Shown one piece after another: positions 2,026-44,400 of a stretch of 64,000 bases of DNA. The stretch comes from Forficula auricularia (taxonomy: Eukaryota; Arthropoda; Insecta; Dermaptera; Forficulidae): the NCBI GenBank assembly GCA_024734495.1, contig JALMQS010000816.1:6783171-6847170 (forward strand), read 5' to 3'. The notes beneath the pieces were generated by a model, which saw only the letters and a program-made list of their open reading frames with translations, did not search any database and had not been told where the DNA came from. Both the position numbers and the translations under genes were made by a program. Numbering within the stretch: the first letter of the stretch is position 1; every line of letters begins with the position of its first letter.

Positions 2026-2155
2026 ATATTGAAGGAGACAATAAAAGAGTGTCTTCCTTATAAATAAAATTTATAATTCCAGCAGAAGACACACTCTTTT
2101 ATTGTCTCCTTCAATATATAAAATTCTGCTACCCTCGGCAAAAAACTTTCAATTT
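2026..2155. mobile_element. Family A foldback, short copy without a ribozyme core
   Basis: The two outer arms meet directly: GAAGGAGACAATAAAAGAG reads inward from both sides. The leader lies on the right side (inverted, about 2120-2155, CTCGGCAAAAA). A 9-bp target-site duplication AAAATACAT is at 2017-2025 and 2156-2164. No HHR core remains. Confidence 0.7.
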
Positions 2156-2645
2156 AAAATACATTTACTGCCCACTGTATTCTACTTAGTTGTTTGTTTT
2201 TGCCATCAACCAAACCGGACTGAATATAACTTAATAATCGGAAACATTTTAAGAGGCTCTTCTATAGATTATGTGAAAAAGAAAAACTAAAAGTTTTCCT
2301 TGAGAGGTTTCGGCCAAATTTAAAATGCTTTGGGGCATAGCCAGCGGTTAACTTCCTCCCCAAAATGTTGAGGTAAACATCGAAATTTTACAGGATATAA
2401 ATAAACGTTCATTAAAAATTAAAAAAAAAAAAAATGGGCATCAGGGAGGTCATTTCTACTTGTCCTAAGAATATACTATATTCCTCTAACCCCTCGGTGA
2501 GTAACTATTCCCCCCCTCAAAATTTTTTCTTGGGTACTACTGCCTTGCTTTGGGGGAAATATTAAAATTGTTAAAAAAAAATTACACTATTTTGACCTTA
2601 TATATATATTGAAAATAAATATTATTCGACGTATCATGAAACTGA

Positions 2646-2974
2646 AGGAGACAATAAAAGAGTGTGTCTTCTGCAAGAAAAATAATTTTTTAATTTATTT
2701 ATAACGAGACTATTGTTTCGAGGTCTTTGCCCTCTTCATCAGTCTATTACAATTGATTGACAGGAATTGATCTGTGAAAGTTTGATGAAGAACTTTTATA
2801 CATTAATTCCTGTGTATCAATTGTAATAGACTCGATGAAGAGTGCAAAGCCCTCGAAACTATAATCTCTTTATAAATAAATAAAAAATTTATTTTTCCAT
2901 CAGAAGACACACTCTTTTATTGTCTCCTTCAATTTATAAAAATTCTACTACTCTCTGCAAAAATAAACTTTAAT
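2646..2974. mobile_element. Family A hammerhead foldback retro-insertion
   Basis: An inverted dimer carries one HHR on the - strand (2708-2742) and a damaged one on the + strand (2831-2867, where the core has an extra C). A 14-bp duplication TATCATGAAACTGA is at 2632-2645 and 2975-2988. The leader is on the right, inverted (CTCTCTGCAAAAATAAAC). No ORF is present. Confidence 0.8.
2708..2742 (-). ncRNA. Hammerhead ribozyme motif, family A
   Basis: The core reads CTGATGA, then stem II GAGGGC-AAA-GACCTC, then GAAAC and AATAGTC with the cleavage triplet GTC. The core is intact. Stem II has one non-pairing position. Confidence 0.65.
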
Positions 2975-3045
2975 TTATCATGAAACTGATGGCTAAATTC
3001 TAAAACTGGAATATTAATTAATGGAAAATGATTAAAAAATAAAAT

Positions 3046-3474
3046 ATGAAAAAATTAGGATTCAAAACAGTATTCAAAACTCCAATTACTCTAGGAAAAG
3101 ATTTAGGTTCAAATAAAAAAGACAAATTACCAAATATAGAAAAAGAAGGGGTTTATAGTTTGAAATGCAAAGATTGCGAAGCAATATATGTGGGAAAGAC
3201 CGAAAGAAATCTGAAAATTCGACTAAATGAACACATAAGAGATTATAAAAATAAAAAGTACGAAAATTCTTTTGCAGAACATTTAAATTCAAACAATCAC
3301 TCCTTCCCAGAAGGTATTAGATTAATAAAAGGAGAAAGGGACCCAAAATTGATTAGCGCAATCGAATCTTTAGAAATTTTGAAGTCATTCAATAGAAATT
3401 CAGAACTCTGTTTAAACAATCAAATTGAATTATCCAATAGTAATCTACTTAAGATGTTTGCTAACAAAAGATAA
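3046..3474 (+). pseudogene. Penelope-like element, GIY-YIG endonuclease domain (5'-truncated)
   Basis: An open frame of 142 codons. 'GVYSLKCKDCEAIYVGKTER' near residues 35-54 is the GIY-YIG signature (here GVY...IYVG), followed by 'RLNEHIRDYKN' and 'FAEHLNSNNHSF', the Arg/His/Asn pattern of the endonuclease placed C-terminally of the reverse transcriptase in Penelope-like elements. No reverse transcriptase is found upstream, so the element is 5'-truncated and the ATG is probably not a true start. A hammerhead motif follows 180 bp downstream (3656-3690). Confidence 0.8.
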
Positions 3475-3655
3475 AAGGAAAAAATTCCTCCTTTCTAAGG
3501 AGAGAAAAAGAAAGGGAAACATATGGTTATATTTGAGTGTGAGCCCGGAGAGAATGTCTTTGTTAGTTGCTAGCTTTCCAGTGACGAAGGAACACCAAGT
3601 TTTCAGTATCCATATGATATTGACTCCATGAAAAACATTTATAATTGAAGAAAGA

Positions 3656-3690
3656 CTGATGATGAAGACCAAGTCTTCGAAACTATAGTC
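3656..3690 (+). ncRNA. Hammerhead ribozyme motif, family B, downstream of the GIY-YIG ORF
   Basis: Core CTGATGA; perfect stem II GAAGAC-CAA-GTCTTC; GAAA; then ACTATAGT with cleavage after GTC. Stem III is a loop-less palindrome, so activity would need a dimer. The same ribozyme recurs twice, facing opposite ways, at 23465-23499 and 23825-23859. Confidence 0.8.
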
Positions 3691-3795
3691 TCAAACAAAT
3701 AAATAATATATATATACAGATATATCATCTTGATATATATGTGTATATGTTTATTTGCATCAAGCAGAGGACATCCTCTTTGTTTCTCTTTGTGA
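3691..3795 (+). mobile_element. Penelope-like terminal sequence after the hammerhead
   Basis: Ends in CATCAAGCAGAGGACA and CTCTTTGTTTCTCTTTGTG. The same end is found on both sides of the foldback at 23319-23962, which ties that foldback to the Penelope-like element. Confidence 0.6.
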
Positions 3796-3876
3796 AATGA
3801 TCAGTGCCCGTGAGGCTTTAACTGAGTTATTATCTTATATTCTTTGTTTTTTATAAATTATTAAATGAGATTCTAA

Positions 3877-8311
<4,435 letters not shown>

Positions 8312-8322
8312 AAATAATATTC

Positions 8323-8328
8323 AATAAA
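8323..8328 (+). terminator. Polyadenylation signal of METTL1
   Basis: AATAAA 11 nt after the stop codon. The expected cleavage point would fall inside the 3' end of CFAP65 on the other strand. Confidence 0.6.
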
Positions 8329-8347
8329 TTATTATTATATTTTTATA

Positions 8348-8353: not shown

Positions 8354-8356
8354 TAA

Positions 8357-8418: not shown

Positions 8419-11400
8419 CTGAATTTGAAATATGAAATAATCATTAATTAAAATTAAATTATAATATTTATTAATAGTTTTTTTTTACCATGAGATAATT
8501 CCCTTTTGGTCTCAGATCGATAATATTGAGCCATTTCTCCTAATGAAAATTGCTCATGAATATTCAAATAAATTAAATGATTCAAAATCTGTACTAAAAG
8601 AAAATGACTTGGCTTATTTAAAAATTTATTGTATAGATTTTTATCTTCATTTCTTTTTAATAGAAATTGAGCATAATAATAATTGTCTGATAAATTAAAT
8701 TTTTCAATATCATGTATGAATAGCTTCTGAATAACTATATCCCTAAAAAGAATGTTTAATTGAATTGAAAGATTTGTTTTTTAAATGTCATTATAACTCG
8801 TTAATTATAATATATTGTGATTTGATTGACACAACTTACTATCAATCCTTTCCTAAAAAAGTAAAAAGCTTTTTTAACTATGATTTACTTACTTTGAATT
8901 CTGTGATACGAAATATTCAAACAAGTGATTATGATTATACAGGGTGTTCCACAGAACCAGGCGCGGATCCAGACCTCTGTTTTGGGGGGGGGGGGGGGGG
9001 GTCGCCGGTATATAAGATCTACTTTTGATCTCGAAGTGTCGCGACGAATTGTCCGGGGGGGCAGAGATACGCCCCACCCCACATAGAACTTTATTTCTTC
9101 AATTTTAAAATTTAATGTTATTAAAAAAAAAATAATTAAATAAACATATAAAAAATGTTGATCTCCAATGTCTTGGAGGGGGGGCGACCGCCCCCATCGC
9201 CCCCCCCCTGGATCCGCGCATGCACAGAACTCGTTCATTAAAAGTTTTCATGGAAGGAGTTGAGAGAAAATTTTGAACTTTGACATATATATGTTTTGGA
9301 ATATGCTTTTTTTTAAATAAATTAATAACAGCTTTTCGATATTTTCTGCTTTGCCGCAATCGCTAACAACTTTCTTATTTTCTATGGAACCCCCCAAATA
9401 GTTTTGCATCATTAGATTCTGTGTTAAAAACTAAGATGATTTTATATAATGCACTTGATGTCTAAAATTTATAATTTCAGAGTTATAGTTATTTTAGAAT
9501 CTACCAATTTAGCCTTCATCTTTAAAAATAAATAATAATTAAACTCTTGTTTGTATAATTAATTTGATCAATGAGAACTCTTAATTAGATATTAAAAAAT
9601 CTTACTTAATCATAAAAATTCAAATTTTATATCCAGGATGACCATAATAATCGTTTATTTCTGAAAATCAAAAAGTTGTTAATACTCAATATTTTCAAAT
9701 GGAACATGGGATAAATTTTAGTATTTTTGAATTCTACATAAAAATCCAATAGGAGTTTATTAAATATTCCCTATGCCTAAAATGAATAGTTTTTTAAATA
9801 AAAAATATTTTAAATTTCACTCGTCTAGATCTTAATGAGCTATTATTATGTACATATGTATAATTTTTAGTAACTTTTAATGAACGAGTTCTGTGGAACA
9901 CCCTCTATATAGATATAGACAGTGGCGTAGGTAAAGGGGTTCAACCCCCCCCCCCATACATTTAACAGTTAAATTTTTCTTTTAGTTTTCTTTATCGATC
10001 CACATCCTACTACTTAGCTGTATCTGAATTATTTATATTAGAAAAGTATTTATATACACTCTACAGTAAATAAACCGGACACTTGATAATTTTTTTTTCT
10101 TATTATATCGAAAATAAAAAAAAAAAAATGTATTTAATAAAAATCGATCATTTATTCTTTGTCTTCGAAACTATTCATCGTATAAAAAGCTCTTAAAATA
10201 GCACGTGGGGGAAATACGAGATATTTTTTTAATTGAATAGATACCTGTTACAATTTTCTGTTTTTTAAAATTATATTTATTAAGCTAGATAAAATTAAAA
10301 TGCTTTTAGCTGTAGAAATTTTTTTTTAATTATCTATCTAGTCAAAATATGGAAATATTTTTTTTTAATATTGTATTTATTATTATTTTTCAGTTCCATT
10401 ATCAGTATTAGCAGATGAAACAAATCAGAGGAAAAAAGGAACAATTAAACACCGTGTTAAATGAAACATACGACAATTTGCAACGTTTCGCCAATTTATT
10501 GTGGCTTTATCAGACTCTATACAAAAAACAAATACAAATGAATCATTCACAATTATCAAAATCAACCCAGACATAATATAATATAATTACCTTGATCAAA
10601 ATTTTAAAAGAGAACTCAGTGAAATGATACATATATATCTAAATGACTCGATTAGCTTCAGAACGGACATGAATAATCTGAGTTGTATATATAATAATTT
10701 ATTGAATAAATACAACAAGTCCATAAAAATTAAAAAGATTGGAAGGGAGGAGGTGAAAGAAACAGGTGATTGTCAATTGAAAATAGAATGGAAAGTTTTT
10801 AAAAATAGCCTCATGAGATGTTGATCTGAATTTAATATATTCTGCTGAATACGGTAAATGAGTTTAATTTTAGATGTTAATTTTAGATTAAATATTATAA
10901 TGTATTGATAAGAGTTATCTTTGTATTTTTTAAATCTTTTTGAATCAGTCAAAGGTTACAATTGGTCTGTTTGAATCCATTCGTCGGCTTAGAGTGTAAA
11001 CCTGCTAACTCCATATATCGTCGGCTTAGAGTGTAAACCTGCTAACTCCATTTTTTTTATCATATATCAGATATTATGGTAAAACCGTTGGAAAGAAAAA
11101 GAGATGCAGCATCGACCAAGTAAAAGCAAGTTTATTGCTACTTTAAAATTACGATCTTAAGTTGTAGAGAAAAAATGTGAAATATAGTTTCTTTCCATAA
11201 CAACAATATTAAATTTTGTTTGTTTTTTCTCTCCCCTGTAATATTTACTTGTTGTGAATTAGCAGGTTTACTCTATAAGGCGACGATATGACATTTTAAT
11301 ACCGTTCGAAAGAAAAAGAGATGCAGCATCGTCCAAGTAAAACTGATACTTAAAATTACGATCGTAAGTTTAGAAAAAAATTAGGAAATATAGTTTCTTT

Positions 11401-14400
11401 CCATAACAACAATATTAAATTTTATTTGTTTTTTGTCTGCCCTGTAAAATTTCCTTGTTGCGAGTTAGCAGGTTTACTCTCTAAGACTAGACACACACAG
11501 TCGCTTTTCAGTCGAGCTATAGTTTAGTTGATGGACATAAATATATTAAGTTTAATGTAGGTGCATACACTACACAACTGCAGATCAACTCGATTATTTA
11601 ATCAAAATCGATCGATGAGCACTTATGATAAAAAAATCGATCGTTTAACTACATAATATCACAGCTTGAAGGGATCCAAAACAAAGCTCTGAAGCCCCCA
11701 GAGAGGTACCAAACAGGATCTCGTACTAAAAGACATAGAGATAATTTCCATCAAAGACGAAATAAGACAACACAGCCACAAGTACCTAAACAAATTAACT
11801 CACCACCCAAATAAGTACGCTCAAGACATAATAAATACATTACCACCAACAAGATTAACAAGACACAGACCAATCAACCTACCACAACGCTTCACGTGAC
11901 CATGCCAAACCTTCTTGAAACCAATAAATCCACATTAATGATAAATCAATGGAAATATCATTAAAATCATTGTAAATCATGTCATTTTTCATTAAACCTG
12001 TAAAGAAGCTTATTGCCCGCAAGGGCAGATTGCTGATGTACTATTGGAGACTATAAAAAAAAAAAAAAAAAAATATTGAAGCGCACGGACAATCGACAGT
12101 TTAGTTGACCACTGAATGTTTGACTTGTACCTCTTTCGAGATTATATTATTTAATCAATGCCCAAATACAAAAGAAAGGAATTCAACGGTGTGTGCATAC
12201 AACACGATTCATCAACGATTAAACAGTTGAGTTGGTTATAAATTGATAATGCATCACGATTTCAAACCAACATAACTAAACTTTTGAGTCGACTGAAAAT
12301 CGACTAGCCTAAGGCGACGGATTGCTACTCTAAACAATCAATGGTGTTGTATAAATAAATGTGTTCATATTCTATTATATAATATATGTGTTCTAATTGG
12401 CAAGAAAAGAATTGAATGCCGAAGTGTTTTTAAAAATTTGATCAAGGTAATTATATTATATTATGTCTGGGTTGATTCATTTGTATTTGTTTTTTGTATA
12501 TAGCCTGATGAAGCCACAATAAATTGGCGAAACGTTGCAATTGGTTGTATATTTTATTTAACACGGTGTTTAATTGTTCCTTTTTTCCTCTGATTTTTCC
12601 TCTAATTGTATTTATTCATTTTATCTAAAAATTATCAAATCTCCGGGGTTTTTTTGCTGTTGAGTGGATAATATCTATATATATAAAATTAAGGTTTTGT
12701 CTGTACATTGGTCCAAATCACTCCAAATTTTGGTTGCACACGTTTCAAGCAAAGTTATGAACGAAAACACCCTCAACAAAATTCCTGTCTGTCTGTATGT
12801 TTCCGTGGCTTCCGCGAAAAGTTGCTCACGATTCACTTAAAAACGGCTGAAGGGATTATTATGAAAAATCATATTTTTATCAGATGTCTTATAACTTACG
12901 TTTTTAGCTATATAACGTTTTGATATTTTGACCCCAAAAGGGGGTTTGGGGGGCGCACGAATGAAAATGATCAAATAACACCTAACTATTAACCCTACGG
13001 CAAATTTTATAATGAGCAAAGTTGTAGGGGATGTGATTTCTGACAACTTTTGTTTAAAAAAAATTGCCGGAAAAACCACCCAAATAGGGGGGGAGGGTCA
13101 AAATATGAAAATTCTTGCTCTTGGACCAAACTCAACCAAATTTTGTATACATTATCTGTGAGTCAGTGGAAGGATAGAAATGCAAAAACTATCGACCCGA
13201 AATGGGGGGGGGGTCAAAAAATAAAAATTCTTACCCTTAGAGCCAACTTAACCAAATTTTATATACATAATCGGTGGGTCACTAGAAGACTAGAAATGCA
13301 AAAACTTGGTGCGGGGGTGGAGTGATGGTACGGGTGTGGAGGTGGGTAAGGGTATGGGGTCCGGGGGGATGAGGGCGCGAGGGGTGGAATGGGGGTGAGG
13401 AGTAAGACGGAGTAGGGTGAAGGGGGTGGTGCGGGGTGGAGTACGGGGGTGCGTAGTGGGTGTGGTGTTCCAGAGGGCTAGGCGGGGGCGTAGGGGTGGG
13501 GGGGGGTTTGAGGCGGGCAGTGCGAGTGGGGCGGGGTGGGGGGTTGGTGCGAGGGTGGCGGGGTGCTGGGTGGGTCTCGGGGGTCAGGGCGTGCCTCTAG
13601 CAAGAGGGCCGCCGAAAGCGGGCCTTGCAGCTAGTAATAATATAAAGGAGTGAGGTGGAAAAGATACCTGAACAAATCAGTTGCTCAATCACCCCCCCCC
13701 CCCCCCGCCATAAAAAATCTATACCTACGCCAGAGAGATATATGTAAAATAAATTGACGAAACGTCTGACCCACTTAATAAAAACTCCTATTTTAATTTA
13801 TCCAATTCCCTGCGATTCCTTCTATTGAAGGAGACAATAAAAAAGTGTGTCTTCTGATGGAATTATAAATTTTTAATGATTAAAAATAGGTGAACATCCG
13901 TTTCAGGATTCACCTGGAATGAGTACATTTTTAGCCCCTCCAAAAGTTGTTGGTTGTCGGTGGGAAAAATAAAGAAAAAATCACACAACGTTCAGGAAAA
14001 TTCTTTTTCTTTTATTATTTATTTATTTTTAGAAACAGTTACATGTTTCGACAGGAAACCCTTGTCATCATCAGCCTGAAAATTTTATACAAAATGAAAC
14101 CATTAGCAAAGAGTTAAAGCGTTTTGTCAACTACTATATTTTTATTTTATGTGATTATTTTAGACTATCTTTAACTCTTTGCTAATGGTTTCATTTTGTA
14201 TAAAATTTTCAGACTGATGATGACAAAGGTTTCTTTTCGAAACATGTATCTGTTTCTATAAATAAATAATAAAAGAAAAATAATTTTTACTGCACGTTGT
14301 GTGATTTTTTATTTTATTTTTTCTCGCCGACAACAACAACTTTTGGAGGGGCTACAATATACTCATTCCATGTGAATCCTGAAACGGATTTTTACCTACT

Positions 14401-17400
14401 TTTAATCATAATTAAGCCAATTCAAGTATTTGTAATAAATTTTTAAATTATTTATAACGAAACTATAGTTTCTAGAGCTTTGCCCTCTTCATCACTCTAT
14501 TTATAATTCCAGCAGAAGACACTCTTTAATTGTCTCATTCAATTTATAAAAATTCTGCTACTCTCGGCAAAAAGAAACTTTCAATTTGATTCCTTTTGTG
14601 TTATTATTAATATTTTAAAAAATATTAATTTTTTAAATTTTAAGATAAACTTTGTCTTACCAAATAATTGCTTCTAATATTTTGAAAATGACATTCACAT
14701 TGGCTTTTTGAATTTTGTTATCCTTATTCTTTTTCAATTCTTTCCGTGGATATATTTTTAATAATTTTTTTATAGTAAATTTATCATTAATAAATTCATC
14801 GGAAACAGTAGATAAATTTATTCCAAAATTAATGTAAAAATAATCAGGATTAGGATATATAGTGTACTTATTTTCCTAAAAAAAAATGTTTAGATATTTC
14901 AGTGATAATGTTAATATATAAAAACTATGCTCTTCGCTTGCCGGGTATAATATTACGAAAACTTACTTTATGAAAATAGTTATGCTCTGTAATTGTAAAT
15001 TCAAATTTATTTTTCATCTCATTTAATTTAAAATTTTCTAAAGAAATTAAATGTCTTTTACGTTTAGCAATATCAAGAATTCCACAAGGAACTGTAATTT
15101 GAAAACAAGTTGGAAGATTCAAAGTTTTTAAAACACACTTGATAACTTTTGATTCTTTAGGAAGAAGAATACTTTTGGATGGTATCATATTTACTGATAA
15201 AACATTTTCAATTTTAACTCTGAAAATAAATAAATAAATTACTATAAACTAATCTACTCTTATTAAACGAGCAAAATTTTTTTTGTTTATATATATATTT
15301 GTATCTTGGTTCTATTTTGAAAACGACTCTACCGATTTTGATGAAACAAATTCTATTAACAAGTTTTGAGGATGAGAAAGCGATCTGACCAGGTCTGGAC
15401 CTCGACAAATTTAATCTTAATTGATCTTTTCTTAATTAAAGTAATTATTGATAGATGAAAATCTCATTAAAAAGTTTGTTTAGATTTTTTTCAATTATCT
15501 TTTATTTTTAATTGTTTTTTTAATTTTAAAACCCACTAATAGGTTATAGCAAATATTAATATATTATATTAAAATTAGGAATTTTTTTGTTTGTTTTTAA
15601 TTAACAGGTGTCTAAATCATAACATTACAGGTGTGTTTACAAATAAATTGGTTGAAGTGGATTTTTTTATATAACTTGTAGTCCAAGAGCTGGTGACACA
15701 TTTTTGACTACGGATTTGACCCAACTAGAAATAATGCGTAATAGTACCGTCTATGATAGTTGTACAGGGAATGGCCAGTCTGGCTGGCTGTAGTAGGTGG
15801 ACCAGGTACTGCGCATGATGTGAGTGTAGTAAAAAATACATATGTGTTAAAAAATATTTTTGACCCACAATGAAATTATAAAAATTATAATTTATAGTCA
15901 ATTATAAACATAATATATTCACCCCAGACCATTGGAGTGGTGGGACGTGGAACAGACCACCCCAAAGTGTATTTTTACAACATGAAAAAAAATATTTGAT
16001 GCTATTTTTTGCATGTTGTAAAAATACACTTTGGGGTGGTCTGGTTCCACGTCCCACCACTCAAATGGTCTGGGGTGAATATATTATGTTTATAATTGAC
16101 TATAAATTATAATTTTTATAATTTCAATGTGGGTCAAAAATATTTTTTAACACATATGTATTTTTTACTGCACTCACATCATGCGCAGTACCTGGTCCAC
16201 CTGCTACAGCCAGCCAGACTGACCATTCCCTGTACAACTATCATAGACGGTGCTATACGCATTATTCTAGTTGGGTCAAATCCGTACTCAAAATGTGTCA
16301 CCAGCTCTTGGACTATTGAAAGAAATCTTATTTAATTTTATGTTTTTATTTCAGATCCTATACGATTATTTTTTCCTATTATTATTTTCCTATTACTTTT
16401 ATAATGTTTATCAATATGAACGAATGTGGGCAAATTGGTATACGAGTAAACAAATAAACACGTAATATGTAGACCACTAGAAAGCCAGAAATGCAAAAAC
16501 TGGGTGCGGTGTGGGGTGGATGTGGGAGGTGCCGGAGGTGGGGTGCAGTTGTGGGGGATCCGGTGGAGGGTGGGGCGGAGTGAGGGTGCAGTGGTGGGGG
16601 CGAGGTGTTTGGTTTGGCTAGGGGGGGGGGCAGTGGTTACCGATCATCGCTCGGTGGCTCCAGGTACTTTTTATATGATTACAGATCAAAATTATTGACA
16701 TGATCTAATTATTTTTATTCTGAGAGTCTTTGTGGTCAGAATTTTTGGGGGTCGTGAATGGAATGGAATAGACTATAGACCATGAGCCTACTGACCATCT
16801 GGCACCTCAGACGAATACCGAAAGGCATTTCATCAATATTTTTTTTTAGAATTTAGCAGAAGTCTTACTAGACGGCCAAAAGCGAATACAGTCACAGTAG
16901 AAGAAGCTGGTAGAAAGCACACTCTCTTGAATTTTGAAAATATGCTGCACTATTTGAGTTTTTATCTGGAAAATGTATAAATTTTTTGAACAAAATGCTA
17001 TATTAGATGAAGGAGGAGGTATCAGCCAAAGATGGAATCACTGGGTTCAATAAAACACCTTTAATAAGACGTTTCGGCCTGAATTTTATTTGGCCATCTT
17101 CAGTCAATTAGGAGTTATACACGGTTAAAATGCGGTACACATATGTGATCGAACCAAGCCTTGTCAAAAATAAAAAAAATTTTAGCTTCATGTGAATTTA
17201 TAACGTGCCTGGACCAAAAGTTTCTGAAACTCCTCCTTCATTTAGTACAGTTTCATCACAGCCACGAACTCTAACAAAATACAAAATCCTATATTTTGAT
17301 GTGATATTAAGATTTATACTCTTAGGTTTTTTATTATTCTAAAATCCAATTCAAACATGTGAAGAAAGCAAAACTTAAAAAATTAAATCAAGAAAATATT

Positions 17401-29400: not shown

Positions 29401-32400
29401 CACGCCGCCATATTGGAAAAATGGCGCCTTAAAACAGTTTTTGACAATATCTCCTTTCCGACTCATTTCACGATAAAAACATTTAATATACAAAATGAAA
29501 CTAGAGAAAATTTCCTACAATTTATGTAATGACCTTTTTTTGTAAAATTAATAGTTTTGGCGTACGAGCGCCGCAAACCATTATACATCTACGCCAACCC
29601 GTGACATTTAATTTTAACTGATTACATTTGTGAATTATAAAAAATCTCAGTTTTCCTTCATAAAATGAAAACCACTCATCCTAGAAACTTGATTCTTATC
29701 ACATTCTCTAGAAATTTTATTGATTTGAACGTTTACTTGGACCACTTTTTTGATAAAACTCTTAGATTTATAGATATCCAGCATTTTCCATGACGCTTTT
29801 AAGGATTCGGATCATATCCTCTCCGGAAAATGTAGGATATCTATAAATCTAAGAGTTTTATCAAAAAAGTGGTCCAAGTAAACATTCAAATCAACACAAT
29901 TTCCTAGAGAATGAGATAGGAATCAAGTTTCTAGGATGATTGGTTTTTATTTTATGAAGGAAAAACTGTGATTTTTGAAACAATGGATCATTTTCTGTCA
30001 TGGAAAAAGCTGAATATCTAAGAGTTTTAACAAAAAGTTGTCTAAGTCAACAAAATTTCTTAGACAATGTGATAAGAATCAAGTTTTTAGGATGAGTGGT
30101 TTTCATTTAATGAAGGAATTTATAATTCACAAATGTAAAAATTAAATGTCACGGGTTGGCGTAGATGTATAATGGTTTGCGGCCTTCGTACGCCAAAATT
30201 ATTGATTTTACAAAAAAAGATCATTACATAAATTGTAGAAAATTTTCTTTAGTTTCATTTTATATTCAATGCTAGGCGTAACTCTAGGGTCTGACCTTTC
30301 ATGGAATGACCATATCTCAACCACTGCTAAAGCTGCAGCGCGCAAGCTTGGTCTCCTATTTAGGTCTAGACGCTGTTATACTCCCAGTCGACGGATGGAT
30401 GCAATTCAGAAGCGAGCAATTAAACTAATAGGAGACCCGGCTCTAACCAACTCACTCGACTCTCTGGCTCACCGAAGAACCGTTTCTGCCCTTTCCCTGT
30501 ACTACAGATACTATCACGGTGTCTGTTCAGTCGAGCTGAAATCAATTATCCCCCCTAATGCCCTCTTTACGAGAAACACGCGGTTTTCTAACGCTCAGCA
30601 CCCCTTCGCTGTCAAATTGGATAAAAGTCGAACAAGCGCTTTCGCCAACTCTTTTATCCCTATGACCTCCAGAGACTGAAACTCGCTCCCTGCCACCATC
30701 TTTCCCGCGACTTATAACCTTCAGCTATTTAAGACCCGTATCCACAGATACCTTCGACCCCCGCCCAACCCATAAAATTCTTTCTTCTTCTTTTCACGAT
30801 GGAGGGGCCAACCCAGGCCTTTAGGGGTTACACCCAAAGCATGCTTTGCACGCAGCACACGTTTTGCCGACTCCCAACACTCTTTTGCGGTCAAATTGGA
30901 AAAGTGCCGGACCACTTCATTCGCGAATACATATATCCCCATGACTTCAAGGAACTGGAACTCTCTCCCAGCCTCTATCTTTCCCAGCACCTATGATCTT
31001 CAAACCTTCAAAACCGGGGTGCATAGACACCTACGTCTACACCCTCTCACTTAATCAACTTTCCCTTCTCTTCGGTAATGCAAGGGTCTTTCGAGATCCA
31101 TAGGGGCTACATCTTTACTGGTGCACCCCTTCTTGCATTCGATTGCATTAAAAAACCTTTTGGTGTAACTCCTTCTCTCATCATTATCATAAAAAAAATG
31201 TTTTTATCGTGAAATCAGCCGGAAAGGAGATATTGACAAAAAGCTGCTTTTAGGCGCTATTTGTCCAATATGGCAGCGCGAACGGCAAAGATACGAGGTG
31301 GCAAAGTTGAAATTCGAAAAGAGCACATCGAAATCTATAAAATTACCAATTTTCAAAAATCCTGAAAACTTTCCAGGTAACGTCTTTTTTTAGAAACAAA
31401 TGACTGGACTATAGATAACTAGAAACAAAATTACCGTTAAAGATCCTTTAGTGGGTTGAAGAGAAAATAATGAACGATGTGGACATTGATAAGCCCATGC
31501 ACGTTTTGAAAAGGATTTATCTTTTGCTACAAGCTTACAATCACATAATTTAATTCTTTTTATATTCCAATTGGATTGAAAGCTTTGATAATTTTTCACT
31601 AAGAGAAATATTACAAGAGATTTTTCATTTAAATAATTTTCAGGTATATTTAAATTAATTTCTTTTTACTGTTTGCTTCTACTGATCTTAAAGCAGAATT
31701 AATCCTGAAATACGTTAATTTCTATTAATTAATTTAACGGAAAGAATTTAAATAGATTCAAAAAAAATCTACTAGGGACATTTTAAATATTACGTAAGAA
31801 TATTTTTACTGATTTTTGTAAGCAAAAATATTGTGAACCCATTCCCCTCAAGTAGGGTGTCCATTAGGGTGGTCATCTTATTTTGGGAATTTTCGAATTT
31901 TTATGGTGCCCGAGGCTCATATGCTTCGAAATAAATAAATAAAATAAGCTGACGTGTTCTGATGTGGCTATCCACTTGACTTTACCATACAACCTGGCCC
32001 CTCACTTATATTTAAGTACCTGAAGCCACCGAGCGATGCACGCTAACCCCTCCCCCCCCCCCCCCCGAAACCACCCACCTCGCCCCACCACTGCACCCCC
32101 ATTCTGCCCCCTCCCAACCTCGCCTCCCACCCCCTGATCCCCCACAACTGCACCCCACCTCCCACATCCACCCCACCTCGCACCCTGTTTTTGCATTTCT
32201 AGCTTTCTAATCAGGCGCGGATCCAGACCTCTGATTTGGGGGGGGGGCGGTCGCCGGTATATAAGATCTACATTTGATCTCGGAAGTGTGTCGCGATCGA
32301 ATTGTCCAAGCGGGGAGGGGGGGGGGGGGTCAGAGACGCCGCCCCCCACCCACATAGAACTTTATTTTCTTCAATTTTAAAATTTAATGTTATAAAAAAA

Positions 32401-35400
32401 AAAATTAAATAAACATATAAAAAATGTTGATCTCCAATGCTTTGGGGGGCGGTCCACCCCATCGCCCCCCCCCCCTGGATCCGCGCATGTTTCTAATGGT
32501 CTACATATTATGTCTATATTTGTTTACTCGTACACCAATTTGCCCACATTCGTTCATATTGATAAACATTATAAAAAAATAAATAGGAAAATAATAATAA
32601 AAAAAAATAATTGTATAGGATCTGAAATAAAAACATAAAATTAAATAGGATTTGTTTCCAAGTTATATAAAAAAAGCCACTTGAACCACTTTATTTGTAA
32701 ACACACCTGTTTTGTTATGATTTAGACACCTGTTAATTAAAATTAATTAAAAATCTGGACCCTCACGGATTATGTATACAAAATTTGATTTGAGTTTGTT
32801 TAAATGGCCTAGATTTTTAATTTTTAACCACCCCCTCCACCCACCTTAATTTTGGGTCGATATACACCAAAATCTAATCAGCTCTTAATTTCAATTCACC
32901 AAAACTACGTGTGAAATTTGGTTTTGATATTCACACTAGATTTTGAGCTAGCTCGTCCACAATAATTTGGTAACGCACAGAGTAACAAATATTTTGAGAA
33001 AACAATTATTATCTCGAAAAATATAATTTTTTCGATGTTCACTTATTAGGGCTTTTTTGTAGACCGAAATGCCATGGTTTGGCTCACTTTTTTAAACTAA
33101 ATTAGTTTCAGCCGTTTTTGAGATATTTTGAAAAAAAGAATAAAAAAATAACAACACTTTTTTCATTCACGATTACAATACTTGACTATATCCTGTATGG
33201 TAAAGTAAAAATATCCCCAAAGTTTCAAGTCTTTATCTCAATTTTAATGCACAGCGATGCAAGTTTCCCATCTTTTTGGCATTGAACGATCAATTTTTTA
33301 TTCCGGCCAAAGAAATTGCTCAAAAAATTTGAAACTCTGTATACTTTATCCTTATAATAGTAGCTTCTTCTTCTTCTTCTTCTTCTTATTTTTAAACCTA
33401 TAGATTTGTTTCTTCCAGAACGTCATACCATCTCTTCTTAGGACGTCCTCTACTTCTTATTCCAACCGGCTTGTTTGTCATCACTTTCTTTACCAGTCGG
33501 TCTTCTGGCATTCTTCTCACATGCGCATACCATTCCGCTCTTCTTCTTTTAACCCATTCGCCCACCTTTTGTATTCCAAATTTTTCTCTAATATCTTCAC
33601 TCTTCATCCTATCGAGCCTGGTCACGTTCATTATCCTTCTTAATGTCTTCATTTCAGTCGTTTCCAATAATTGAGAAGTTTTTGCAGTGTCGGGTCTTGT
33701 CTCTGCTGCGTAAGTTAATATTGGACGTACTACGGTTTTGTAGACTCGTAATAGTAGCTATCCTTCAGAATTTTTACAGATTTTTAGCTATTATAATTTT
33801 GGAATCTATAACTTATTAATGCCAAGATATAGCAGTATTCTATCTAGCTGTAACTCCAAAATTATAATTATAAATTTGTTAAAGCAAATATTTTTATTTT
33901 ATTTATATATTTTTACACGCTTTATATTAGCTTCCCTAGTTCAAAGATGATTGTAAACCCGATCCAGAATGTCGATTTTATCCTACTTCTAATTGTCGTA
34001 TCGATTTGAAACAATTCAGGATACAATACAATAATTTTAAACAATCGAGCTGAAAAAATTAACTAAGGAGGGGGGCGAAATATGGAAATTAAATGCCCCT
34101 TTGGTCCAAACCCAACCAAAATTTGTATACATCATCTATGGGCCTCCAGAAGGGTAATAATAAAAAAATAACAAAATGGCGGTGAAATTGGGAAATATAT
34201 ACTAGACTCTTGTCAAATTTAGTTTTAGTTTAGTGATTGACGCTTAGAATTGTACCTATTTTAAGACTAAAAAATAAAAAAATAAATTATAGTTTAAAAA
34301 AACCAAAAAACACGCCCTTGTCAGCAATGCACTAAAAAGTACAAAATAATGTAATAAATTTTTTTATGTCCAATAAGGACAAAAAGCCTTGGGCACTTTG
34401 TCAAAATTAATTAAAATTACTTCTCAAAGAAGCCCCCTTCCACTCTTTTTGACTTAGTTATTGGACATGAAAAAGTTTATTACATTATTTTCTACTTTTT
34501 AGTGCATTACTGAAAAAACGTGTTTTTTAGTTTTTTTAAACTGTATAATTTATTCAAGATATCACATTTAACTTACTTGTTTATATTAAGCATTTTCCAT
34601 AAATCAATTTTATTAAACAAAGGCGTATTGTCTATAAAATTCAAATCTAATAACTGGAATGTTGGATAAGCAGCATTAAAATTTATGGCTACAACAGGAA
34701 CAGGCTTTTGAAATGTATTAAGTTCTTGACCATTAGTGTCAATACATGTTTGATAAACAATAGAATATTGTCCTAATTGAGGTTTTAATGGATATAAATT
34801 AATTTCAATTTTATGATTTTCACCAGAATTAATTACTCCCCAGGAAGGTTCCAATTTTATATTACTCTCTTTAATAGAAATGTTATGATATTGGCCATCA
34901 TTATCATCAAATCGTTTAATGAGCCATAATTTATAAGTAATAGAAATAGAGCTAAAATTGAATAGGTTGAAATGCGATTTTCTTATTAAATTTGGAGTAA
35001 ATTCACTTTCTTTGATAATTGGACATTCTCCAAAGTCAATTCTTGTAGGTATAGCCTAAAATAAAGATATTATTTTACCATTATTTTCCGTTGAAGCATA
35101 ACAATATACAGGATGAGTCACGGGAAACGGATGTTTTTCAGGAAAGCATAACTCTGCGGATTTTTCAAAATAAAATATTTTATTTTCATAGGAACAATCA
35201 CTAAACTATGCCATTATTGAATGCTTATGAGCGAAAAATTATGTCTGACAAATGATGGCAATTTTCACGAACACAAATTCGAAGGCGCTCTCGATAAAAA
35301 TGAGCTTCATCGCTCATTATGATGGTCAAATCCTCATTTTCTTCAAACATGTCAAGCATTGTTTGGCAAAAAGTGAGACGTTGTTGGTAATCTCGCTCAT

Positions 35401-38400
35401 TCAACTGTTGGACTATCGTAATTTTATACGGGTGAAGCCCTAGGTCTTTGTCTAAAATTCGCTGCACAGTGCTTTGAAGAAACTTTGGCAAGAGTGGACG
35501 CAAACTTTCGAGAGCGCCTTCGAATTTGTGTTCGTGAAAATGGCCATCATTTGTCAGACATAATTTTTCGCTCATAAGCATTCAATAATGGCATAGTTTA
35601 GTGATTGTTCCTATGAAAATAAAATATTTTATTTTGAAAAATCCGCAGAGTTATGCTTTTATGAAAAATATCCGTTTCCGAATGACTCACCCTGTAGAGT
35701 AAACTCTCGTTTATCCACGGAATTAGGTGGCGCGGCAACCGCGAATAAGACAATTCCGTAAATTAGTCAGAAAAGAACAGAAATTAACACAAGAATGCTT
35801 TTGAAAAATGTTTATTCAGAGTAGAAGCAGGTTTAAAAATTTATTATTTTACAAGTTAAATACAGTGGAAATCGTTTTAAAGCGAAAAACGCTTAACATG
35901 AAAAATTGGTTAACACGAAATAATAATGCGGTCCCGATAAAATTCTATCTATTTTCATACATTTTTTTGTTTTAACACGAAACAAAAATCGCTTAACACG
36001 AAAAGATTTCGCTTCTCGGAATGAACAAAATATGTTATTTTCCAAAAAACCAATAAATTTCTTATTTTTTTTATTAAAATTACATACATATATTAAAGTT
36101 TATTAAGTTTTTATTAATATTTTTATTCATTTTATTGTTTTTTATTAAATGCATTATGTATATACAAAATGTTTAATACATAATTTCAAATGTAGTGTAT
36201 CTAATATGATATACTCTAATAAATGTAATTTTGGTGAGTATACATATTTTTTTTTGTATGCAATACAATATGTTTAACACGAAAATATGTCGGTCCCCTC
36301 AGTTTCGTGTTAAGCGATTTTTACTGTATATGTATCTGTGCACAATGTTACATAGTTTTTAAAGTTTACTTTTGCACAAAATAATCCGTCAGCAGTTTCG
36401 AGATACTCTCAGACCTCGAATTAACCAGAAAGCGGATAATCGGCCCGCGGATAAACGAGAGTTTACTGTATTACTTTTTCATCTACAAATGAGTTTCAAA
36501 ATTTTTACTTTACCATACAGGGTATGGTCAAGTATTGTAATCGTTCGTGAAAAAAGTGTTTTTTTTCCTTCTTTTTTTTCGAAATATCTAAAAAACGGCT
36601 GAAACTATTTTGATTAAAAAAATTGAGCGAAACCATGGCATTTCGCTCTACAAAAAAGCTCTAATAAGTTAACATCGAAAAAATTATATTTTTCGAGATA
36701 ATAATTTTTTTGTCAAAATGTCTGTTAGTCTGTTAGTTAGTCTGTGCGTTACCAAATTTTTGTGGACGAGCTAGCTCAAAAACTAGTGTGAATATCGAAA
36801 CCAAATTTCACACGTAGTTTTGGTCCATTGAGATTAAGAGCTGATTAGATTTTGGTGCATATCGACCCAAAATTAAGGGGGTAGAGGGGGGGGGTTAAAA
36901 ATTAAAAATCTAGGTCGTTTGAGCAAACTCAACCAAATTTTGTATACATAATCAGTGGACTCGCAGAAGTCTAAAAATGCAAAAACTAACCGCCCAAAAT
37001 GGGGGAGGGGGGGGTCAAAAAATGAAAATCTTGGCCATTTACCAAACTCAATCAAATTTTGTATACATAATCAGTGGGTCCCCAGAAGTCTAAAAATACA
37101 AAAACTAACCGCCCAAAATTGTTAATTCTTGCCCATTTATCAAACTCAACCAAATTTCGTATACATAATCAGTGTGCTCCTAGGATTTTAAAAATTCAAA
37201 AACTAACCCCCCTCCCCTACATGATTATAAATAATTTTATTAAATATTAATGTAAGTGAGGGGCCAGGTTGTATGGTAAAGTCAAGTGGATGGCCACATC
37301 AGAACACGTCAGCTTATTTTATGAAGAAAATCAATTTAGCTTTTATTTGAAAAAATAAATTAAAATTAATATTTTAATTATCCTATGCCTTTCATAATTA
37401 GTTTTAAAAGAATGTCATTGATATTGATAAGAAAGAGCGTGAGGGGGATGACCGAAGGGTGAACCGCGACCTAAAACCATGTACACCTACGTCCATTTCC
37501 ACTTTCATTTCCAAGCAGAAGACAATAGAATAACATAGATAATCTAATGAATTCCAAAATAATTCCAAATACGGTGTACACCTAATTCCAATCGCGGTTC
37601 ACTCCTCGGGGATGACCGATCCCGGAGAAATAACAGAATTCAGAGTGTAAACCTGCTAACTAACAATAAGGAGATTTTACAGGGCAGAGAAAAAACAAAC
37701 AAAATTGAATATTGTTGTTTAGGAAAAAAACTGTTTTTCACATTTTTTTTCTACAACTTACGATCGTAATTTTAAGTAGCAGTTTTACTTGGACGATGCT
37801 ACATCTCTTTTTCTTTTGAACGGTATTAATATGTCATATTTGATAAACAATGGAGTTAGCAGGTTTACACGCTAAACTCTAAATCGACGCTATATCATAA
37901 AGAAGGGAGAGGATAACATTTCATCAACCATTAAGTGGGAGATAAATTTAACCGAATTTATCGCGCGGAGAATTTACCACTGCTCGAAGCCCCTAAAACC
38001 TTAGTAAATTGGATATTGAATTGTATCTAAGTTTCTGAGATTGGCTCGTGATCCCGGCTTCTTTTCCTTCTACTCTGTTCTTTTCACGATGGAGGGGCCA
38101 GCCCATACAGGCCTTTAGGGGATCCACCTTCTGGTGTATCTCCTTCTCACATCAATATCATTAAAAAAAACCAAAAAAAAAACCACAACTATATATGAGC
38201 TTGGAAGAAATAAAAATTTTTAAGAAAAAAATAAAAACCGACTTCAAAAAATTAAATGCAACAAATAAAATACACTAAAAGGTATAAAATAATTATTATC
38301 TTATTTAGTTACAACTAAACGACGAAATATTAACACGAAATTACTTTTGAAGTCGGTGCCAAACATATACCTTTTATGAATCGCACTCGACGGATCTTAC

Positions 38401-41400
38401 TTAGTACGTTTGGAGGATATGCTCGCTTATAGGTATAGTTTGTTTGGTACCGAATTCAAAAAGTAATTTCGTGTTAATATTTCGTCGTTTAGTTGTAACT
38501 AAATAAGATAATAATTATTTTATACCTTTTAGTGTATTTTATTTGTTGCATTTAATTTTTTGAAGTCGGTTTTTATTTTTTTCTTAAAATTTTTTATTTT
38601 TCTCTTTTTAGTGATGTTATTAATAGTGATCATATCATCAGAACTTGACCAAATTAATATGACACCATCCCTAAGACACCCCTTTCGGATAAAAAAAGAA
38701 CCATCGAAATCGGTTCATAAACAAAGAGGTTAGGTCTAAACAAACCTAATAAAAAAGGTCTAATACCTATGAAAAAAAATCGAAAAAAAATGGGACCAAT
38801 CGGAAGCTAGACTGGACCCAATGCAAAAAAAATTTCAAAATCGGTTGACAATTGGCGGAGATATAAGGTAACATAGGCACAAAAAAAAAAAAAAAAAAAT
38901 TCAGTCGAATAGAGAACCTCCTCCTTTTTTGAAGTCGGTTAAAAACTAATGAAATTTATAAACTCTCTTTTGACAATAATAATTTGGACCAAAATTAAAA
39001 TAGATAAATTATAGGCCAGGCAAATTAGATTGAAAAAAGGCCGCGCTGGCCAATAAATATGCACAAGCTGGAAATAATTTTAATTAACGTTAGGCATCTC
39101 AAATAAGAATTACTTATATCATATTTATATTGGATATTAAATAATATTTTAAGTTTAAATACATGTATTTATGATTTACTAATAAATTTCCTTAATAGTA
39201 CCCTAAATATTTTTCTCATTTTAAAATTAATTTAACTCACTACTAATTCACTTGATGAAGCCTCTCCTTGTATATTTATGAAAAAGATCGAGCGTATTTA
39301 ACTTTGCAAATAAATGAAGTATTTGGGGAAATAAAGCATTCGATTTTAAAAAATAATATCCAATTTCCGGTGGTTTGAAAGTCCATTTTTGAAATAAAAC
39401 TTGATTCGGTTGAATTATTTCTTCCTCTTCGGGCATTTGTAAAATATCTTTATATTTATCAAAATTATATCGAAAACTAAAAGAAAAAAAATGTTATAGT
39501 TTTTTACTAATCAAATTTGAATACGGCTTTAATATTATCAGTACCTGGAGGCACCGAGCGATGCTCGGTAACTTCTTCCTTCAGTTAAAAGCTTTATTTT
39601 AATATTACTTTTTAATTTAAAATTCTGATAAAAATGTCGATTTTCATTTGAGAGCCGGTTTCAAATTAAAAAAAAATACAAATATATATAATATTCACCC
39701 ACTGTACCCCGCTCGACCCCTCGAAACGTTTATTAATAGTTCTAACGTTTAGGGAGAACAAAATATGTTAAAATCCACAATCACAATACTTCTTCAAGGC
39801 CTTTGAGAATAAAGGATTAACCCAACCCATTGTCTGTCTGGGTACAAAAGTAAACAAAAGAGAAACCTTTTTTAAACTCCAAGATTGGGATTTGTCTACA
39901 TGAGAATAATTAATTTGATTACGAAAAAACCCATCAAAAACAATTTTGTCGAAGATGAAACCGTGACAGATCGAATTGCCAACCCAAAAACCCCCTAACC
40001 CGTGAATTTCATCAAAATCGGTAGAGTCGTTTTCAAAATAGAACCAAGATACAAATATATATAAATAAATATACAATTTTTGCTCGTTTAATAAGAGTAG
40101 ATAAAAGAGAAAGCGATTAGAATTTTGAAAACTTGAGTTAATTGCTAATAATTTGAAAAACTATTGTGTGGAGAATTAAAAAAAAATCATTCTTCAGTAA
40201 GCTTACCTTATTTGATGTCTTGAAAGATTCTTCAGGGGAACTATTAAAGTAGATATAGTGCCCGCAAATGTTAGGGGAAAACATACGTCATTATTATTTG
40301 ATACTTGGAGGCTAGGAAATTCGAGATACCCCAGAAAGTGAATAGAGTGCTGAAAATTTGAGAAAATAAATACTAAAATATTTAAGTCAGTGGTTCTCAA
40401 CCGGGGGTAGGAACTTATAATAACGTACCCCTTAGGAGTACCCGGGTCGTACTAAAGATACTCCTGGCTTTTAATTGTTTTGCAGGTCTATTCTCTAATC
40501 AAAAACGTTAACTTTTAACATCCGAAATCAGCGTTAATTCATTTTAACACCTCCTTGCCTAAAATTGCTATTCTGTAAGCAAAAACTCTAGCACCAAAGC
40601 ATTAATAAGTAGCCAAAGGTGTTAAAAATTAAAGCCATATCAGCAAGGGCGGATCCAGGAATTTTTTATGTGGGGGGGGGGGAGAATGTATATAAGGTCC
40701 CCGATGTATATAAGATCTACTTTTATATCGAAAGTGTGTCGCGATCGAATTGTCCAAGCGGGGGGGGGGGGGGGGGGGGTCAGAGACGCCGTTTAAAATT
40801 TAAAAAAAAAAGTGTTATAAATTCTCTGTCGATTTGGCCGCCGTTTTTTGACCTCTGCGTGCGACGCACGTGTTGCACTCCCAGCCAGGCTCCTAAATTC
40901 GATTACATATTTGGTGTTTGTAATTTGTTTTTAATTTGATTTTGTTTGTAATTTTGTTTTTAATTTTAATTTTTTTATTTTAAATAATAACATTTTGTTT
41001 ATATTAAAAAAAAAAAAAAAAAATATTTCTGAACGTACTCTTCTTTCTCAAAATTTTACTTGTTGAATGTTTTTACAAATTTGTATTCAGTTTTCATTTG
41101 AACTCCTGATGATGGGCTAATAACCCGAAATATATATCGAGTGAATCAAACTCAAAAAAAAACATACATTTGTTTTAATATTTCCTTTTGTGAAACCTAA
41201 CCTAGAAAATTCTCCTCATAAGTTACTTATAATGTTTCACCTAGAACCGACACCTAAATCCTTAAAAAAAAAAAATATCTAACCATTAAATATGAAGTTT
41301 TCTCAGGAATTTAATTCAAAAAGCCTTTGAATACTTTTAGAAGAGTAAATATTATACGTTCATTAAAATATTTAGGTCTGGTGGTACGCCAAAATTTCTC

Positions 41401-44400
41401 AAAAAGTCAAGTGGTACGCGGGTTCAAAAAGGTTGGGAACCCCTGGTATAAAGAGTCTAGGTGTATCGTGCACTGAGCTAGAGGTTGTATTAAGTAAAAA
41501 GGTTGAGAACCACAGATTTACGTAAATAAAGTATAATTTAGTACGTGAACTTTATCATTTAAGAGAATATTCCATTCTTCATGAAGCATTGTTAAATTTT
41601 TATCAGAAGATTTTAAACAAGCATCAAATATTTGATAAGGTCCTGTAATTATCCCTTGATTTGGAGTTATTGTAATATTTCTGTAAAAATAAAGGAAAAT
41701 TAGACAATTTCTTATTCATATTTTTTCTAATCCAAAATAATTTTTTAAATTTATATTATAGATGATTGATATTATACGTACGAATTTTCCGGAGATATAA
41801 AGTCATACATTAATGGTAAATGACCTTTCCTATATATTATAAAAGTTGTTTTTGTTAATATTCCAGGAATAGTGGGAGGAAATATTACATCTTTAAAATC
41901 AATTAAATATTCCGGTGACCATGTTAATCCTTGACTAAATGTATTTCCTAAAGAGTATATAAATTTAATTATCAATTTTTGCCTGGCAATATATATAGTA
42001 AATACACAGGCAGTGGCATAGTCAGAAAATTTTCATGTGGGGGGAGGGGGGGGGTCAATCCACAAAGCAAAATATTTAGTGGGAATTTTTTTTTATTAAA
42101 ACAAATAGTCCAGTTAAATTGTGTTTTTACCCAGAAAATTTTGGGGTAGTTGTAATTTCTTCAACCATTTAAGTTTTTGGGTGTGATGAAACTCGTCCCG
42201 CAATGAGGTTGAAGTTTTGAAAAACTGCAATTTTTTGCAAAAAATCGCAATTTTTCCTTCATAAAATGAAAACCACTCATCGTAGAAACTTGATCCCTAT
42301 CTCATTCTCTAGGAAATTTTGTTGACTTGACCACTTTTTTTGATTAAACTCTTAGATTTATGGATATCCAGCATTTTCCATGACAGGATACGATCCGAAT
42401 CCATCAAAAAAGTGGTCCAAGTAAATGTTTAAGTCACTAAAATTTCCTAGGTAATGAAAAAGAAATCACGTATCTAGGATGAGTGATTTTCATTTTAAAA
42501 GGGTAAAACTGCAATTTTTTGAAAAAACATATAATTTCCTTAAATTTCTTCCAGAACTTAAGTGACTTGATTTAAATTTTTCATTAAATTGAAGGGTTGG
42601 TTTTGTCACAAATATAATAAAACAATAATAATAATTATTATATAATTCTCTATAAAAAGAAAAAATGTAAATAAATGTTTCATTTCAATTTTTAGAACTA
42701 CTGAGGATGGTCGACCAGTGGTGACCGAAACTGTATAGTTATCAATTAAATAATTCTAATAGTTATTAAAATTATTGTTTTATTATATTTGTGACAAAAC
42801 CAACCCTTCAATTTAATGAAAAATATAATTTCCTGTCATGAAAAATGCTAGATATCTATATATCTAAAAATTTTGAACGTTTACTTGAATCACTTTTTTG
42901 ATAAAACTCTTAGATTTATAGATATTCTACATTTTCCGGACAGGATATAATCCGAATCTTCAAAAGCGTCATGGAAAATTATGGATATCTATAAATTTAA
43001 GAGTTTTAGCAAAAAAGTAGTCCAAGTAAACGTTCAAGTAAACAAAACTTCCTAGAGAATTAGATAGGAATCAAATTTCTAGGATAAATGGTTTTTATTT
43101 TATGAAAGAAAAATCGACGATTTTTTGCAAAAAATTGCATCTTTTTCAAAACTTCAACCTCCTTTCGGCACGGGGGTTACCATTTATACAATTAAGATAA
43201 AACTTTGTTTAAATTGTACCAAATTTAGTCTAGTTTAAAAATGTATAGAGTGGTCTTTATCAAAAACGTACTCCTTCATGGTCAAAATGGGAAAATATCG
43301 AAAAAAGAGCGAGTTTTTGGGTGATCCGAGGGCCACGGGGGAGGGGGGAGGCTACCGATGTCCAAAACTTGGATTTTGCGCTTGAGCCCGAACAGTTGGT
43401 CGGAGAAAAAACATAGATTATAAAATTTGTAGAAAATCTTATGAACTTTCATTTTGAATAGGAAGGTTATTTACGAAAAGTTGATAGTTTTCGAGTTATA
43501 AGCAAAAAACCGCCAAAAAATGGAAATTTTCACCTTTTTTTCCATTTTCTACAATGTTGCGTCAGAAAATTTTGGTGGGAAACCTCAGATTTGGATTCAG
43601 CGCCCCAAAAAACATATATATGCAAAAAATCAGAACTACTCCAAAACTATTTGACTGGCTATATTATTTCATAACGAAAAGAAAAGTTTCGGCGGAAAAA
43701 CTTTTGCACATTTTTAATGAGAAGCCCCCATCTGAAAGAGTTTCAACCGAAACAAATTTGATTAAAGTCTATTTATAATTTTTACTCCAAAAATAAAATA
43801 TTTCACAGGTCCAATGAGGAATATAAAGTAAAATTACAATACTTTTACCTAATAAATTTATCCGAAGTGGTATAGGTAACGGGATTTCAACAAGATTTTT
43901 ATTCGTTGTGATATTTGACCAATAGGCTTGACCTATGACATCTTTTTGAAATACCAAGTTCTTTTGATTAGACTTAAATTTTGCTTTAAATAATAAAGAA
44001 TCATTTTTATTTAGAGTGGCTTTTGTAGGATTTATTTCAAAATTACCAGATTGATCTGAAAAATTTTTATTATTAAAGAATCATATAGGTAATATATATA
44101 CCTATAGGTAGAATATATTTAGCTTTTAACATGCGGTAAGAGGAGACAGCCAAAATTAAACCGTCTCCATACTATTATACTAGTACATTTTATTATAGAA
44201 ACGTTTAATATAAAAGTACCTCTCGTAGGCACCGAGCAATGCTCGGTAACTTCTTCCTTCAGTTAAAATCTTTATTTTAATATTATTTTTAATTTAAAAT
44301 TCTGATAAAAAGGTCGATTTTTAATTGAGAGCCGTTTTCAAATTAAAAAAATACAAATATATCTATACGAGCTTTTCGTGCGTGCCTTCGGCACTCCCTC

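Follow-up and report, generated by a model that had tools for sequence, protein, structure and literature searches.

What process would set two copies of one short repeat head to head at a single target site, and do so many times within one stretch of DNA? The question is raised by 64,000 nucleotides of the dermapteran Forficula auricularia (GenBank assembly GCA_024734495.1, contig JALMQS010000816.1, positions 6,783,171 to 6,847,170 of the forward strand), an A+T-rich stretch (32% G+C) called the window here and numbered from its first letter. The window contains 17 insertions, each consisting of two copies of one repeat sequence, joined head to head and enclosed by a direct repeat of 8-17 bp, the target-site duplication (TSD). 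Hammerhead motifs occur in 15 of them. Every insertion has an antisense left arm and a sense right arm, with the downstream ends of both arms facing the TSDs, and a short tail separates the arm from the TSD on exactly one side. These insertions were probably made by two-ended target-primed reverse transcription (TPRT), and the repeat is likely the pseudo-long terminal repeat (pLTR) end of a Penelope-like element (PLE). What is new in the finding is the strict one-sided tail, together with the proposed two-ended mechanism.

Head-to-head insertions and their one-sided tail

Thirteen of the insertions had been named in a first-pass annotation of the window as foldbacks between direct repeats. That description holds, since all 13 starts fall within 2 nt of the base that follows the left repeat and the right copy is present in each. 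The four further insertions lie at 6089-6429, 6481-6772, 17005-17282, and 61121-62586. Eleven families (A-K) were counted by stem II of the hammerhead motif, where at least eight had been proposed. Five insertions belong to family A. Those at 2026-2154 (TSD TAAAATACAT; tail on the right, 37 nt) and 60327-60503 (insertion 60326; TSD CAAAATCCAnTTAA, one mismatch; tail on the left, 45 nt) have lost their cores, and the arms of the latter meet at the stem-III palindrome CTATAG. The inverted dimer at 2646-2975 (TSD TATCATGAAACTGA; right, 47 nt) has a strict core in the left arm and a core with one additional nucleotide in the right, and that at 25733-26039 (TSD ATTATTTTT; left, 45 nt) has two cores. 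The fifth, at 13822-14587 (TSD GATTCCTT; right), has one damaged core, located in the tail-less arm, and is interrupted by a family-H inverted dimer at 13877-14434 (TSD ATAAATTTTTAA; right, 26 nt) that carries two cores, the stem of the right-hand core being weak. Insertion 13822 itself apparently entered a truncated single family-D copy (13747-13820), giving a three-layer nest with 13877.

Family I includes inverted dimers at 6481-6772 (TSD AAAATGACGA; two cores; tail left) and 24837-25139 (TSD CGAATACATTAT; left core strict, right core mutated; left, 54 nt). A third member at 61121-62586 (TSD ATAAATAATGCTTTT; tail left) has a damaged core in its tail-less arm, and our reading is that two later insertions interrupt it. 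A palindrome at 62165-62535, with transfer RNA (tRNA)-like sequence in both arms (Rfam tRNA, 41.8 bits, 62344-62418) and no hammerhead, is read as inserted into it. A 113-nt repeat occurs at 12673-12785 and 61290-61402 (96% identical), one copy being inside the family-I element. At 25300-25372, in a very short stretch, a sequence resembling the antisense tail-less end of family I directly abuts a sense family-I tail and is perhaps a minimal head-to-head dimer, although no flanking duplication could be assigned to it.

Inverted dimers with two cores also represent families C (18750-19335; TSD TAATATTGCTTAAGAAT; left, 51 nt), B (23319-23962; TSD ATTGATTTAAAA; left, 43 nt), and D (27833-28265; TSD TTAATTATTTATT; right, 31 nt), and the family-J dimer (6089-6429; TSD TAAAAAATTGT; tail right) has damaged cores. 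In family F (10382-12604; TSD ATTGTATTTATT; tail left), the right core is strict and the left is damaged. A core is present only in the tail-less arm of the family-G element (17005-17282; TSD AAAATnCTATATT, one mismatch; tail right), whose arms are very unequal, and of the family-E element (42541-42822; TSD ATATAATTTCCT; left, 37 nt), and it is complete only in that arm in family K (28737-28998; TSD GTTATATTTTAT; left, 42 nt). Fifteen of the 17 insertions are short pairs of 129-766 bp, the longest of which owes its length to nested insertion. The first-pass view that all are short foldbacks fits most of them; it does not fit 10382, with inverted arms 1.8 kb apart (10382-12604), or 13822, interrupted by 13877.

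The TSD range of 8-17 bp proposed earlier was confirmed across all 17 elements, with one mismatch each in 17005 and 60327. TSD length was compared for 15 elements against 210 mismatched flank pairs. Nine of the 15 were matched in length by no more than 1/210 of these pairs and are thus longer than at least 99.5% of them. The 10-nt TSDs of 2026 and 6481 were matched by 6% of mismatched pairs, those of 25733 and 60326 (9 nt exact) by 19%, and a blind pick for 6089 and 13822 was no better than chance; by length alone, 6/15 TSDs are not clearly unusual.

The tail was measured in 12 elements. In 11 of these, 26-54 nt lie between arm and TSD on one side and 0-2 nt on the other; in the twelfth, 13822, the measurement is obscured by its nested insertion. 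A mechanical test was also applied, in which the longest repeat of at least 8 nt was taken and a tail was scored when one gap from the arm end was at most 10 nt and the other 20-60 nt. Controls came from 49 rows of inverted pairs, comprising those of the 17 elements, 12 control palindromes without recognised hammerheads, and 16 further pairs that are short or widely spaced. Exactly one tail was found in 17/17 elements and in 0/12 control palindromes; the same pattern appeared in 26/272 mismatched left/right flank pairs (13/132 among the controls) and, through an 8-nt match, in 1/16 of the further pairs. The count of 17 includes 6089 and 17005, whose arm bounds were drawn by eye, and 13822, where two 8-nt repeats tied and the test took the one that fits. 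For 17005, the test picked an 8-nt repeat over the preferred 13-nt repeat with a mismatch, and the element is one-sided either way. In an earlier run without 17005 and 61121, which used earlier arm bounds, one tail was scored in 13/15 elements; the test failed for 6089 and 13822.

If the two ends were chosen independently, the chance of exactly one tail would be at most 0.5 per insertion and 8e-06 for 17, by our arithmetic. The observed regularity exceeds independent choice, and two start sites were therefore likely used together. The ends themselves are well defined. Among the five family-A insertions, the tail-less ends agree within ~7 nt (CTCCTTCAA) and the tail ends within ~4 nt (CTTTCAATT). 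A tail sequence is common to families A and B, and another is common to the family-I copies at 6481, 24837, 61121, 41106, and 5492. Both outer ends of each insertion resemble reverse-transcription start ends abutting the TSD, at two different start sites, and the simplest reading is therefore one priming event for each target strand.

Hammerhead-like cores and a probable Penelope-like connection

A strict scan for the core (CTGANGA, 0-2 nt, a stem of 3 bp or more that includes no fewer than two G-C pairs, and GAAAC/T) returned 20 matches in the window; 100 dinucleotide shuffles gave a mean of 0.0 and a maximum of 0. A scan with a looser core and longer stem gave 17 matches (shuffle mean 0.63, maximum 3). 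No matches in the window resulted when stem II was required immediately after CTGANGA, because the cores hold one extra base at that point: in 10/10 family representatives, an A or U separates CUGANGA from stem II. Helix III is tiny or absent. Covariation of stem II was assessed with these 10 representatives, the first intact core listed for each family, from which family J dropped out. Positions 2-4 are paired in 29/30 cells, with all four Watson-Crick types present; redealing the 3' strands gave 14.0 +/- 2.8 paired cells, and 29 was reached in 0/10,000 trials. The hammerhead cores are thus real as sequence, with CUGANGA, a covarying stem II, and GAAA. Seven cores were folded; all seven formed stem II, and at least those of families C and D also showed a stem-I/stem-II arrangement.

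By our reading, at least one strict core is present in 12/17 elements; only damaged cores remain in 6089, 13822, and 61121, and none in 2026 and 60326. This bears out the claim that most of the foldbacks carry cores and that 2026 and 60326 lack them. It had also been claimed that most of the others hold two cores facing opposite ways. Paired cores are indeed always opposite, but 13822, 28737, and 42541, as well as the new 17005 and 61121, have one recognisable core. Two strict matches are elsewhere, one at 3656 behind an endonuclease open reading frame (ORF) and one at 41106 in a single copy. Another strict motif match, at 8026-8059, lies outside every definable element.

The connection to PLEs proposed in the first-pass annotation gained a direct link. 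An ORF of 142 aa at 3046-3474 (+) encodes a GIY-YIG endonuclease domain (PF01541, 4.4e-07) and is likely the C-terminal end of a PLE. Behind it lies a pLTR (3509-3796, +; core at 3656-3683) that ends at the tail-less site; it is 87% identical to both arms of the family-B element 23319 and shares their tail-less end. Further features expected of PLEs are present, namely a hammerhead motif in the pLTR (3656-3683), short TSDs, and a tail, for which 30-40 nt on some ends would be expected. Ten database relatives of the endonuclease ORF were examined, and two (P0008 and P0010) run from antisense-pLTR-like or tail-like sequence straight into the endonuclease, an arrangement that, judged at the protein level, may represent a pLTR end inverted against a truncated endonuclease ORF. 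The elements probably represent a PLE variant rather than a new class, and their repeat probably corresponds to a pLTR end.

Several results count against these assignments. The Rfam hammerhead models, run in the window as the covariance-model check suggested earlier, gave no match at E<=1 over the whole window and none at E<=10 in 23300-28300; the sequences are therefore called hammerhead-like cores rather than members of an Rfam family. The best Rfam matches, mostly microRNA models fitting long hairpins, were set aside. Single-sequence folding energies were unremarkable for 5/7 cores (z -1.0 to -1.7) and low for the other two (z -3.4 and -5.0). The endonuclease ORF is tied to a matching pLTR in just one of the eleven families, and for the ten remaining families the PLE assignment comes from core, tail, and TSD. 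No PLE reverse transcriptase (RT) domain was found among window ORFs of at least 120 aa or the stop-to-stop frames of 2100-3700 and 10550-12480; the Pfam scan covered five ORFs, and the endonuclease ORF is truncated. The long interiors of 10382 and 61121 gave no tblastn match to the ten endonuclease proteins. An 18-mer of the family had four matches in genome_contigs, all in bacterial metagenome-assembled genomes and judged to be chance (~7 expected in 257 Gb, by our arithmetic), and none in viral_contigs; a search of viral_contigs with the endonuclease alignment gave 34 pattern matches, none confirmed.

Routes to a head-to-head pair

In the proposed two-ended mechanism, the PLE endonuclease would cut both target strands, leaving 3' overhangs, and each target 3' end would prime reverse transcription on element RNA. 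Priming at the outer start site would yield the arm with the 26-54-nt tail, and priming at the inner site the tail-less arm; a pair of RT subunits bound to a single RNA is one way in which the two sites might be coupled. The two antisense complementary DNAs (cDNAs) would extend towards each other and be joined by pairing of their 3' ends, at palindromes or short complementary stretches, and each would then be the template for the second strand of the other. The overhang left by the cut would become the TSD with no fill-in. Arms that stop early would produce dimers consisting of the pLTR only, and arms of unequal length would produce unequal dimers. The self-cleaved RNA template suggested in the first-pass annotation does not fit the data. 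By our reading, 26/34 arms continue past the inferred site of ribozyme cleavage; the template was therefore uncut there, and a self-cleaved template is rejected.

The first-pass annotation had also suggested snap-back, in which one target-primed cDNA reaches the template end, folds on a palindrome, and copies itself, the resulting hairpin then being linked to the opposite side of the target. Centres can be palindromic, as with CTATAG in 60326 and GAATTC in 25733, most arms are approximately equal, and the available portion of PMC3846280 infers self-priming, on an antisense template, from palindromic inverted junctions. Under such copying, however, the tail arm should include the whole of the tail-less arm, a prediction violated in 5/6 clearly unequal elements. 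The tail arm is the longer one only in 2026; the reverse holds for 13822, 17005, 28737, 42541, and 61121, whose only recognisable core lies in the longer, tail-less arm, the difference in 28737 being only ~5-7 nt. Self-priming also gives no reason for copying to halt 26-54 nt before the end in 17/17 elements. Because the tail-less arm is longer in these five, and with the one-sided tail likewise unexplained, snap-back is disfavoured and we regard it as unlikely. A master element that was already an inverted dimer, transcribed and inserted whole by ordinary TPRT, would account for the same structure every time and for the single tail. It is still less probable, since family-A insertions differ in their centres and arm lengths, 5' truncation should remove the end of the distal arm although all 17 retain their tail-less outer end, and the copy with the endonuclease ORF has its pLTR at the 3' end.

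The window is rich in palindromic repeats without hammerheads, which would suit foldback elements or DNA transposons like miniature inverted-repeat transposable elements (MITEs) that hold ribozyme-like sequence by descent. That origin is improbable in the extreme. TSD length varies from 8 to 17 bp, the outermost 26-54 nt of one side have no inverted partner, so the inverted repeat stops short of that end, and no transposase was found in the five ORF translations scanned with Pfam. Neither half of the case named beforehand as refuting, a fixed TSD length with a linked transposase, was seen in the window, and the variable TSDs, the unpartnered outermost stretch on the tail side, and the truncated arms uphold the earlier view of a retro-type insertion. 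Retrozymes, in which tandem hammerhead monomers spread head to tail as circular RNA, are also small, non-coding, and hammerhead-bearing, and the animal retrozymes in the available text of PMC7229834 are described as tandem repeats. No listed element contains a same-orientation pair of cores, every pair being opposite, and this source is highly improbable as well.

Two-ended TPRT itself faces contrary evidence beyond the self-priming inferred in PMC3846280. No clear arm-length difference is present in 11/17 elements, many of which have small central loops, and these fit self-priming too. Six unequal elements, five of them with the longer arm tail-less, are too small a sample to establish a leading polymerase, and unequal arms could stem from deletion at the palindrome centre after insertion. 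The mean arm distance in family A was 0.222 within insertions (5 pairs) and 0.213 between them (40 pairs), which discriminates nothing between one and two template RNAs. Single, non-inverted copies are also present: a family-I core with a downstream tail at 41106-41131 (+), a damaged family-I core with a downstream tail at 5492-5517 (+), a truncated family-A copy with a damaged core (CTGTTGA) at 56251-56278 (+), and the truncated copy at 13747.

If two-ended TPRT is correct, the one-sided tail would be its signature. The one-tail rule bears on how PLEs finish integration and can be counted in any genome. Two-ended priming would tie together three observations, namely inverted pLTRs, an optional tail, and priming on two strands in vitro. 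A wider proposal, to which we lend slightly less than even weight, is that two-ended TPRT is the default PLE route: an RT dimer would act on one RNA with start sites one tail apart, head-to-head dimers would be the usual product with no separate second-strand step, and dispersed minimal hammerheads would be largely its debris. This would offer an origin for those dispersed hammerheads, whose role is called a mystery in the available part of PMC7761336. No statement of a two-ended mechanism was found in the literature covered, most subscription papers, including the 2014 and 2017 hammerhead papers, being outside that coverage.

Surroundings and comparison with known systems

Other repeats and coding sequences share the window. 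An ORF at 54672-55385 matches RVT_1 (8e-27), and we take it to be Jockey-like. Two palindromic repeat families without hammerheads are MITE-like, one at 38208-38599 and 58523-58921 and the other at 21481-22777, 29640-29976, 42232-42527, and 42873-43037; the mechanical test found no one-sided tail pattern in either family. An inverted repeat at 35107-35696 has the ends TACAGGnTGAGTCA, which resemble mariner-type ends. A tandem coding-like repeat unit at 7305-7988 has overlapping ORFs on both strands.

Among known systems, L1 twin priming has two target strands priming on one RNA. It inverts different parts of one copy, whereas the insertions described here are two overlapping copies placed head to head.

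The architecture had been thought to match no standard element class, and this did not stand. The available text of PMC3846280 (2013) describes PLEs of Adineta vaga with head-to-head inverted pLTRs, TSDs, a 31-bp tail on one, and palindromic junctions, for which self-priming on an antisense template is proposed. Inverted pLTRs and short 3' extensions are likewise listed among PLE peculiarities in the portion of PMC8969392 available. In the examples given in that part of PMC3846280 (Pen2a and others), the inverted pLTR pair flanks an ORF, whereas 15/17 insertions in the window are short pairs. The tail is optional there, as far as the same text goes, and occurs here on exactly one side in 17/17; hammerheads have 0 mentions in PMC3846280 and are found here in 15/17 elements.

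Minimal PLE hammerheads (Cervera and de la Pena 2014; Lunse et al. 2017, as cited in PMC7761336) have a reduced helix III and are dispersed in non-coding DNA and pLTRs. The sections of PMC7761336 at hand describe them as tandem in PLEs and call their in vivo activity, like their role, a mystery; here, in contrast to that tandem arrangement, dispersed cores are mostly inside inverted pairs. The closest biochemical parallel is the work on the Poseidon PLE of Anolis carolinensis (PMC11167929, 2024). In vitro, the PLE protein cleaves each target strand and extends it, using two start sites separated by the tail; unprocessed RNA is the main substrate, and the start site does not differ between strands. 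Poseidon is described in that study as tandem copies, and inverted pLTRs are not discussed, the word "inverted" being used once, of a blocking nucleotide. Shared by Poseidon and the elements of the window are a GIY-YIG endonuclease, a pLTR that carries a hammerhead, probable start sites one tail apart, and, on the mechanism proposed here, cutting and extension of both target strands.

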